The notes under the pieces are model-generated. The model did not search any database. It saw only the letters and a program-made list of their open reading frames with translations, and was not told the DNA's origin. The position numbers and the translations under genes were made by a program. Positions 52,693 through 55,048 of a DNA stretch of 64,000 nucleotides are shown here, piece by piece. The DNA comes from Hyphomicrobiales bacterium (GTDB lineage: Bacteria > Pseudomonadota > Alphaproteobacteria > Rhizobiales > CAJQND01), in the NCBI GenBank assembly GCA_028285595.1, contig JANQOW010000052.1, positions 1-64,000 on the forward strand. The letters are read 5' to 3'. Position 1 is the stretch's first letter, and the number at the start of each line of letters is the position of its first letter.

Positions 52693-53064
52693 TTGTCGAA
52701 AACGGTCCTCATTGTTGAAGACAACGAGCTGAACATGAAACTCTTTCATGATCTGCTGGAAGCTCACGGCTACTCCACATTGCAAACCTATGATGGCCTG
52801 GCCGCGCTCGACATGGCACGCGAGCACCGGCCCGATCTTATCTTGATGGACATACAGCTACCGGAAGTCTCCGGTTTGGAAGTGACCAAGTGGCTGAAGG
52901 AAGATGAAGGTTTGCGCGAGATACCGGTGATTGCCGTCACCGCATTCGCCATGAAGGGCGATGAAGAGAAGATCAGGGAAGGCGGCTGTGAGGCCTATAT
53001 TTCAAAACCGATTTCGGTGACCCACTTCCTTGAGACCGTTGATGGATTCTTGGTAGAGGCTTGA
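52693..53064 (+). CDS. divK: Single-domain response regulator DivK
   Basis: 123 residues from a TTG with GGAG upstream. A complete receiver domain with the acidic pocket in LIVEDNELN, phospho-acceptor D53 in LILMDIQLP, Thr in IAVTAFAM and Lys in YISKPIS, and no output domain. This sequence and the following pleD gene match the Caulobacter pair. DivK with PleC and DivJ controls the CckA-CtrA pathway and cell polarity. pleD starts 4 bp after the stop. Confidence 0.95.
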
Positions 53065-53068
53065 GCCC

Positions 53069-54436
53069 ATGACCGCCCGCGTATTGGTCGTCGATGATAT
53101 TGTGGCGAACGTGAAGCTGCTTGAAGCCAAGCTGCGCGCCGAGTATTTCGAGGTGGTTACGGCCATGAACGGCCCGGCCGCCCTGGAAATCATCCAATCG
53201 GAAAAGCCCGACATCGTGCTGCTGGACGTGATGATGCCCGGCATGGACGGCATTGAAGTGTGCCGCCGCATTAAGGGCAACCCTCAACACAACCATATTC
53301 CGGTGGTGATGGTGACCGCGCTGGATTCGCCTGAAGACCGGGTGCGCGGCATTGAGGCGGGCGCCGATGACTTCCTCACCAAGCCGGTCAACGATGTGGC
53401 CTTGTTCTGCCGCGTGCGCAGCCTGTTGCGCTTGAAGATGCTCACCGATGAGCTGCGCGCTCGCGCTGACACCAGCGAGGCCGCGGGCCTGGCTGAGCAG
53501 ATTGAGGCGGAATACATCCAGAACCCCGGCCGCATTCTGCTGGTGGATGATCTGGATATGTCCGTGGAGCGCATTCGCGGGTCGCTTCAGGGGATCTATG
53601 ACGTGACCCCGGTGGAAGACCCGCAAAGCGCTCTGTTTGAGGCCGCTGAGAACCCATACGATCTGATCGTGGTGAGCCTGGATCTTGAGAATTTTGACGG
53701 GCTTCGGCTTTGCTCGCAAATCCGCTCACTGGAGCGCACGCGGCAAATCCCGGTTCTGGTGTTAGTGGAACCCGATCAGGACGACAAGCTGATGCGCGGC
53801 CTGGATATGGGCGTGAACGACTACCTTGTGCGCCCGGTGGACCGCAACGAACTTCATGCCCGCGTGAAAAGTCAGATCCGCCGCTGGCGGTATACCCAGA
53901 AGCTGCGCCAGAGCGTTCAGGAATCCATCGAACTGGCCGTAACCGATCCGCTGACCGGCCTTCACAACCGGCGCTATCTGGAAACCCATTTGAGCGGTCT
54001 GGTGGACAAGGTGGGCAATCGCGGCAAGGCGCTGACGATCCTCGCCCTCGACATTGATCACTTCAAAAGCATCAACGACACGTTCGGCCACGATGTGGGC
54101 GATCGGGTGCTGCAGGAATTTGCCCAGCGGGTGCAGACGGAAGTGCGCGGGTTGGATCTCGTCTCGCGGACCGGCGGGGAGGAGTTCATCGTCGTCCTGC
54201 CTTACACAAACACCGATCAGGCACGTCTGATTGCAGAGCGTATCCGCGAATCTGTGAGCAAGCAGCAGTTTGAGGCTGGCGGCGATTGTGAGCCGCTGGA
54301 TGTGACCGTTTCAATCGGGGTCTCTGCCCTGGACGATCCTTTGGATCAGCCCGATGACCTCTTAAAGCGCGCTGACCTTGCCCTTTATGACGCCAAGCGG
54401 GGCGGGCGCAACCGCGTTATCTACAACGCGGCGTGA
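53069..54436 (+). CDS. pleD: Diguanylate cyclase response regulator PleD
   Basis: 455 residues with the PleD layout: receiver 1 (1-120, D53 in IVLLDVMMPGMDG), degenerate receiver 2 (~150-275, acceptor region VVSLDLENFDG), and a GGDEF domain (~290-455). The active-site motif is GGEEF (~369), and the inhibitory I-site RGLD lies five residues before it, so feedback inhibition by c-di-GMP is expected. PleD makes c-di-GMP at the stalked-type pole when phosphorylated by DivJ-type kinases. Confidence 0.96.
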   Translation: MTARVLVVDDIVANVKLLEAKLRAEYFEVVTAMNGPAALEIIQSEKPDIVLLDVMMPGMDGIEVCRRIKGNPQHNHIPVVMVTALDSPEDRVRGIEAGADDFLTKPVNDVALFCRVRSLLRLKMLTDELRARADTSEAAGLAEQIEAEYIQNPGRILLVDDLDMSVERIRGSLQGIYDVTPVEDPQSALFEAAENPYDLIVVSLDLENFDGLRLCSQIRSLERTRQIPVLVLVEPDQDDKLMRGLDMGVNDYLVRPVDRNELHARVKSQIRRWRYTQKLRQSVQESIELAVTDPLTGLHNRRYLETHLSGLVDKVGNRGKALTILALDIDHFKSINDTFGHDVGDRVLQEFAQRVQTEVRGLDLVSRTGGEEFIVVLPYTNTDQARLIAERIRESVSKQQFEAGGDCEPLDVTVSIGVSALDDPLDQPDDLLKRADLALYDAKRGGRNRVIYNAA

Positions 54437-54605
54437 GGCAAAATTAACCTTCGTTAACCGATTTTGGTCCGGTTCCGCCACGAATTGGGCGGCTATAGGG
54501 GCCTGCGGCGCCCAGTAAGGTTAACATTTTACTAATTTACCCGCCGTATTGGCGTTAACCATTTGTTTTTGTTGTGATTCTTCGGTCTCGCCGTATATTC
54601 ACCCT
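54437..54605 (+). promoter_or_regulatory. TTAACC half-sites and candidate promoter downstream of pleD
   Basis: TTAACC occurs at 54444 and 54454 (one helical turn apart), TTAACAT at 54521 and TTAACCAT at 54555; the last matches the CtrA half-site. A -35-like TTGTGA (54572-54577), 16-bp spacer and -10-like TATATT (54594-54599) follow. Together these could place the downstream RNA under CtrA control, which would be notable next to divK-pleD. Confidence 0.45.
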
Positions 54606-54887
54606 CAGCTACGGCTGAGAAGGGCGGGGGAACTCTTTGAGGGATGCGACGACAAGAGAAGACCTTAATCCTGGCCTCCGGTTGGGCGAGTCTTCCGAAA
54701 GTTTGAACATTCCTTAGCCTCTTCGGTCAGCGCGTGGTGTCGGTTTGCCCCTTGGCGTTCAGGTCCGCCGCATCTCCTGGCACCTTGGGGTTGGCCGGTC
54801 CGTCCGGTTGGAGTGGCCTCCTCGTATTAACCGTCTCGGACCGGCCCCTTATCAGAAGGGAGCGCCCCACCGGCGCTCCCTTTTTTT
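54606..54887 (+). ncRNA. Candidate structured small RNA, about 280 nt
   Basis: No protein-like frame explains this stretch. Structure is abundant: a CTCAGC/GCTGAG hairpin with TACG loop at 54604-54619, a long-range perfect 10-bp stem (GGCCGGTCCG at 54793-54802 with CGGACCGGCC at 54837-54846) enclosing a GGAG/CTCC hairpin, and a final perfect terminator. A promoter-like pair lies just upstream. A 20-codon frame (54644-54706) has GAGGG touching its ATG and is unlikely to be translated. I could not match it to tmRNA, 6S, SRP or RNase P RNA. Confidence 0.5.
54858..54887 (+). terminator. Strong rho-independent terminator
   Basis: GGGAGCGCC (54858-54866) pairs perfectly with GGCGCTCCC (54872-54880) around a 5-nt loop and is followed by seven T. 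It cannot serve pleD directly, being about 420 bp past its stop, which supports a separate transcript. Confidence 0.92.
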
Positions 54888-54900
54888 GTCCCGCAGCAGT

Positions 54901-54997
54901 CGTCATCCCGGAATTCTGCGTGAGCAAAATATCCGGGACCCAGAACCGCTTGCTCTGAGAGTTGCAGCCCTGGGTCCCCGCGTTCGCGGGGATGACG
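54901..54997. repeat. Dispersed palindromic repeat, copy 1
   Basis: Two facing units. Unit A (54901-54943) runs CGTCATCCCGG to CCGGGACCCAG with an internal hairpin. Unit B (54968-54997) is the reverse complement of CGTCATCCCCGCGAACGCGG plus GGACCCAGGG. Both units recur near topA (61712-61847). Each unit begins CGTCATCCC and ends GGGACCCAG, so the whole can fold into a large cruciform. Similar CGTCATCC...GGACCCA elements are widespread in alphaproteobacterial genomes. Confidence 0.85.
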
Positions 54998-55021
54998 TTG
55001 AGTGGTGCGGGGAGGCCCAAC

Positions 55022-55048
55022 AAAAAAGCACCGCCGGAGCGGTGCTTT
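55022..55048 (-). terminator. rpmG rho-independent terminator
   Basis: Read on the minus strand, GCACCGC and GCGGTGC (55028-55034 and 55039-55045, loop of 4, extended by A/T pairs) are followed by a run of T, visible as AAAAAA at 55022-55027. It lies 27 bp after the rpmG stop. Confidence 0.88.

Follow-up and report, generated by a model that had tools for sequence, protein, structure and literature searches.

An EcpR1 family small RNA between pleD and rpmG in a Hyphomicrobiales bacterium, with a cluster of TTAACC half-sites upstream

The pleD-rpmG locus

The window, a 64-kb stretch of DNA from a Hyphomicrobiales bacterium, carries on its forward strand a divK-like response regulator gene (52693..53064) immediately 5' of pleD (53069..54436; NCBIfam PRK09581, 649.6 bits against a cut-off of 474). 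The divK-like product is a lone receiver domain that no DivK model matches at its cut-off, and its name is taken from context; the nearest PleD in our named collection comes from a Hyphomicrobiales MAG and is 62% identical. Downstream, and convergent, lies rpmG for ribosomal protein L33 (55075..55263, reverse strand; TIGR01023, 73.5 bits against 23.95). The interval that pleD and rpmG flank, 54437-54887, had been described in an earlier note as free of genes, and nothing in it is supported as a gene by conservation. As judged from the PleD and L33 model matches, this divK-pleD / rpmG arrangement is the known address of the small RNA gene ecpR1.

Two further elements lie between the ecpR1 terminator and rpmG. 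Directly 3' of the terminator, at 54900-55006, is a palindromic dispersed repeat of the CGTCATCCCGG...GGGGATGACG type, which has 73 matches in the genome at E <= 0.001 and is common in tandem clusters. Convergent with ecpR1, a strong intrinsic terminator of rpmG (55025-55048, reverse strand) accounts for weak matches to the RsmY and asX2 models.

An EcpR1 RNA with a covarying two-hairpin structure

Positions 54745..54851 on the forward strand match Rfam family RF02500 (Atu_C6), the EcpR1 core of stem-loops SL1 and SL2, over the full length of the model (cmscan 78.9 bits against a gathering cut-off of 60 bits; E 2.3e-9). This is the sole Rfam match above cut-off in the window; asX2, RsmY and STnc420 also appeared but scored far under their cut-offs, are terminator-like and were set aside. 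There is one copy of ecpR1 in the 5.96-Mb genome. The element at 54745-54851 is EcpR1, a further member of an already described RNA family. A small RNA with a cell-cycle role, as proposed in the earlier note, is thus borne out by the RF02500 match, whereas the RNA is not new, EcpR1 of the related root-nodule bacterium Sinorhizobium meliloti having been described in 2015 (PMC4414408). It is also shorter than the 54437-54887 interval, comprising the core and a terminator that reaches to about 54884.

The GC-rich SL1 loop, UCCGCCGCAUCU (54764..54775, forward strand), is an exact match to the mRNA-pairing region that was demonstrated by mutation in S. meliloti (PMC4414408), and in the window it has a predicted unpaired probability of at least 0.95. 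Across 30 genomes the loop is nearly invariant, with one-letter variants in a few: in our EcpR1 alignment A1, L021 and L023 have CCGCCGCAACUCC, with A in place of U, L029 has gained an A and the loop of L011 is one base shorter, so that it is not strictly invariant. SL2 (54792..54846, forward strand) shows the EcpR1 trait of a variable stem with a UCCUCG loop, here present as CCUCCUCG on a 10-bp stem. Compensatory changes occur at 8 of its 10 pairs, and 98% of its alignment cells are paired. This stem, GGCCGGUCCG/CGGACCGGCC, is the 10-bp long-range helix noticed earlier, and the several perfect stems reported with it are likewise real. For the two-hairpin structure as a whole, 96.6% of cells are paired and 14 of 23 pairs are doubly changed among 30 genomes of the order, a level of covariation reached in none of 500 shuffles; the structural conservation in relatives that had been named as a check is present.

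The core is followed by a Rho-independent terminator at about 54854..54884 (forward strand), a 13-bp G+C-rich stem and then a U tract. This textbook terminator, also claimed before, is seen in the folds and not in our pattern scan, whose stem search probably swallows the T run; the congener L027 has it too. A separate candidate contact, between the SL1 loop and a leader sequence GGGAUGCG (about 54641-54648), was dropped as likely chance.

Might the region encode a short protein instead? Two open frames, 74 and 101 codons long, do overlap the core, but both run through the terminator into the repeat element, length changes among homologues are not multiples of three, substitutions track the base pairs and no reading frame over the core is conserved in homologues; we regard a coding gene as extremely improbable.

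Distribution and comparison with a congener

EcpR1 is found in 40 of 61 relatives, in 32 of them above cut-off. Among 30 EcpR1 loci fetched with 1.5-kb flanks, pleD lies upstream in 27 and rpmG downstream in 23. In a sample of 289 genomes from the class, five from other orders (L225-L229) also carry EcpR1, as does a MAG labelled Parvibaculaceae (L036:5019-5136), a range that exceeds the five Rhizobiales families of the original description; the RNA has been mapped in Methylosinus too (PMC12403871). A purpose-built model detected no EcpR1 3' of pleD in Caulobacterales, Rhodospirillales and other groups. The same model recovers strongly diverged forms at the same address in Hyphomicrobium (L040:5046-5159, 44.7 bits; L041:5074-5186, 28.9 bits), the second of which retains the SL1 loop with the remainder altered.

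L027 is the sole congener compared, and its PleD is 97% identical to that of the window. The EcpR1 cores are 99% identical and the intervening parts of the gap 60-71%, with the exception of two conserved blocks at 54515-54575 (89%) and 54606-54666 (84%). In the second block, which may be the 5' leader of a longer primary transcript, there are CAGCTACGGCTG and CTCTT...AAGAG inverted repeats.

Promoter and transcript forms

The promoter-like pair pointed out earlier is present as TTGTGA-N16-TATATT at 54572..54599 (forward strand). It is the best promoter-like match of the gap, and in L027 the corresponding position also carries a promoter-like match; by themselves such pairs are near chance in the region (2 found, 1.4 expected). 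From the position of this candidate promoter we infer a transcription start near 54605, or else nearer the core, where another promoter could still lie. From the 54572-54599 promoter, the primary transcript would be about 280 nt long and would be trimmed afterwards. The S. meliloti forms measure 171, 142 and 101 nt (PMC4414408), and the span from core to terminator here, about 140 nt, is in keeping with the 142-nt form. The likely promoter of the window differs from the S. meliloti arrangement in lying about 150 nt 5' of the core, and the primary transcript may therefore be longer.

EcpR1 could also be a processed 3' piece of divK-pleD mRNA read-through, the TTAACC cluster upstream being unrelated to it. 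The gene and pleD share a strand, no clear terminator separates them, and a promoter of the usual type near the core is not conserved in the genus, both of which would suit such an origin. In S. meliloti, however, ecpR1 is an independent unit whose expression is lost on mutation of its own -10 box (PMC4414408), and in the congener both the half-site block and the promoter-like match are kept at the same place; we consider the read-through origin improbable and favor a separate transcription unit.

TTAACC half-sites upstream of ecpR1

What might control such a unit? The TTAACC-type half-sites on which the earlier note had based its proposed link to CtrA are real, at 54444, 54454, 54555 and 54519 (given there as 54521), the last being GGTTAAC on the reverse strand. 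Four half-sites within the 164 bases of 54437-54600 compare with 0.31 expected, a number reached in none of 2000 dinucleotide shuffles, and the 64 kb as a whole contain only 8 occurrences of TTAACC or GGTTAA; besides those four, another of them is inside the RNA (54827). The first two half-sites form a TTAACC-N4-TTAACC pair (54444..54459, forward strand), equivalent to TTAA-N6-TTAA, whose TTAA pair and spacing are retained in L027. The conserved TTAACC-rich block at 54515..54575 (forward strand), 89% identical to L027 as given above and bordered by flanks of 60-67% identity, is a candidate CtrA-binding region and includes, at 54555-54562, the only exact half-site TTAACCAT in the window, which is also retained in the congener.

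Known CtrA sites take the form TTAA-N7-TTAAC or that of the half-site TTAACCAT (PMC3692519). No canonical TTAA-N7-TTAA(C) box exists in the window, which has the one pair with 6-nt spacing (54444). Such spacing occurs in one of five verified CtrA sites of S. meliloti, and Caulobacter sites that lack the 7-nt spacing were bound weakly (PMC3616915).

Comparison across relatives strengthens the association. The pleD-ecpR1 gaps of 25 genomes contain 22 TTAACC against 4.5 +/- 2.0 in dinucleotide shuffles, a density of 3.0/kb; the density is 3.7/kb in 13 named EcpR1-bearing loci (two apparently the same genomes) and falls to 0.18/kb 3' of pleD in 39 loci that lack EcpR1, although these are richer in G+C and part of the difference is therefore one of composition. 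Upstream of other genes the densities are 0 (rpmG), 0.83/kb (gcrA) and 0.32/kb (dnaA), and upstream of ctrA 5.6/kb, with 15 occurrences of TTAACCAT there against one N7 box. On these densities the TTAACC cluster accompanies ecpR1 and resembles the ctrA promoter region.

The sites might nevertheless belong to a regulator other than CtrA, or stem from the A+T richness of intergenic DNA, an explanation that would leave the identity of EcpR1 unaffected and to which we give somewhat less than an even chance. The missing TTAA-N7-TTAA box is consistent with it, as are the nature of the link, a motif match only, and the likewise high frequency of related words (TAACCTTA) in these gaps. Yet TTAACC ranks first in frequency among its 90 anagrams (33 occurrences in 37 gaps, median 3) and exceeds the dinucleotide shuffles (22 against 4.5); it is rare upstream of gcrA, dnaA and rpmG; and in the same genomes it is this type of site that prevails upstream of ctrA. 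We take CtrA control of ecpR1 to be a reasonable hypothesis, unproven yet better supported than expected, in which CtrA would act on the TTAACC cluster. In the accessible literature we found no published link from CtrA to ecpR1: the CtrA sites noted in the EcpR1 study belong to genes affected in the ecpR1 mutant and not to ecpR1 itself (PMC4414408), and the pleD-rpmG locus goes unmentioned in the main text of the CtrA ChIP paper on S. meliloti.

Candidate mRNA targets of the SL1 loop

We scored the complementarity of the SL1 loop to the gcrA, dnaA and ctrA leaders, using about 30 genomes for each gene and 300 permuted loops as the reference; the permutation preserves base content alone and takes no account of relatedness, though nearly all genomes come from different families. 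In the region from -200 to +20 of gcrA the mean complementarity score was 20.7 against 17.2 +/- 0.7 for permuted loops, none of the 300 scoring as high, and complements of 10-12 nt, of the GTGCGGCGGACC type, occur in eight genomes at -98 to -136, where the S. meliloti site lies at -109 to -95 (PMC4414408). A loop-complementary site in gcrA mRNAs is thus conserved, at the level of predicted pairing, across the order. For dnaA the order-wide signal is marginal (10 of 300 permuted loops as good), and ctrA mRNA was rejected as a target (221 of 300). The presence of this conserved gcrA site in many families suggests that the oldest target is gcrA and not dnaA or ctrA.

The genome of the window itself lacks the long distal gcrA site (about -110). 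Beside the ribosome-binding site it has AGATGCGG (-22 to -15), which could pair with the loop, but which 43% of permuted loops match as well and which is predicted to be mostly paired; some relatives have similar, loop-pairable sites near the gcrA ribosome-binding site. No dnaA site above chance was found in this genome, where 81% of permuted loops did as well. Elsewhere in the genome there are also exact 12-nt complements of the loop, in about the number expected by chance; those examined fall within the coding sequences of a miaA-like gene, a transporter and a flhA-like gene and were discarded.

Discussion

The RNA whose identity, covarying structure, gene address, terminator and order-wide loop-complementary gcrA site are established here is, very probably, a trans-acting regulator that pairs through its loop with cell-cycle mRNAs, gcrA foremost, and slows the cycle under stress. 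In S. meliloti, EcpR1 is induced by ppGpp and stress and represses gcrA and dnaA through base pairing, its documented action being on these two genes and not on ctrA (PMC4414408), and we would expect, by analogy, that it acts in this species in the same way. The ecpR1 gene would yield a small RNA consisting of two hairpins followed by a terminator, its SL1 loop would pair with target mRNAs and lower their translation or stability, and the cell cycle would thereby be slowed in starvation or stress.

The RNA of the window shares with S. meliloti EcpR1 (SmelC291, Atu_C6) the full model, loop, two hairpins, terminator, address and single copy. By contrast, the gcrA pairing site has diverged in the window genome, and no counterpart to the TTAACC cluster is described in the accessible S. 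meliloti literature. If CtrA controls ecpR1, the RNA would also be like CcnA of Caulobacter crescentus, a CtrA-linked RNA that pairs through its loop with the 5' UTR of gcrA; CcnA differs in being encoded at the replication origin and in raising CtrA through a CCCC loop (PMC8959179), and the likeness is one of mode of action, with no kinship of sequence claimed. GspR of Sinorhizobium is likewise a trans-acting cell-cycle sRNA of the same order, but targets ctrA and cspA5, lies at another locus and is confined to one genus (PMC5928217).

We speculate, tentatively and with more doubt than confidence, that CtrA binding to half-sites sets ecpR1 transcription across the Hyphomicrobiales, giving a path from CtrA through EcpR1 to gcrA, and that in the clade of the window the gcrA site moved from the far leader to the ribosome-binding site. 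The gene gcrA encodes the activator of ctrA, and such a circuit, if true, would be like the CtrA-CcnA-gcrA circuit of Caulobacter, built with an unrelated RNA.

Our analysis extends the range of EcpR1, an established cell-cycle riboregulator, to another lineage, and the new hint that it adds is the presence of likely CtrA sites upstream of ecpR1 in many relatives. Were CtrA to act on ecpR1, this would close a CtrA-EcpR1-GcrA feedback loop and would join ppGpp stress signalling to the cell-cycle clock at one promoter.
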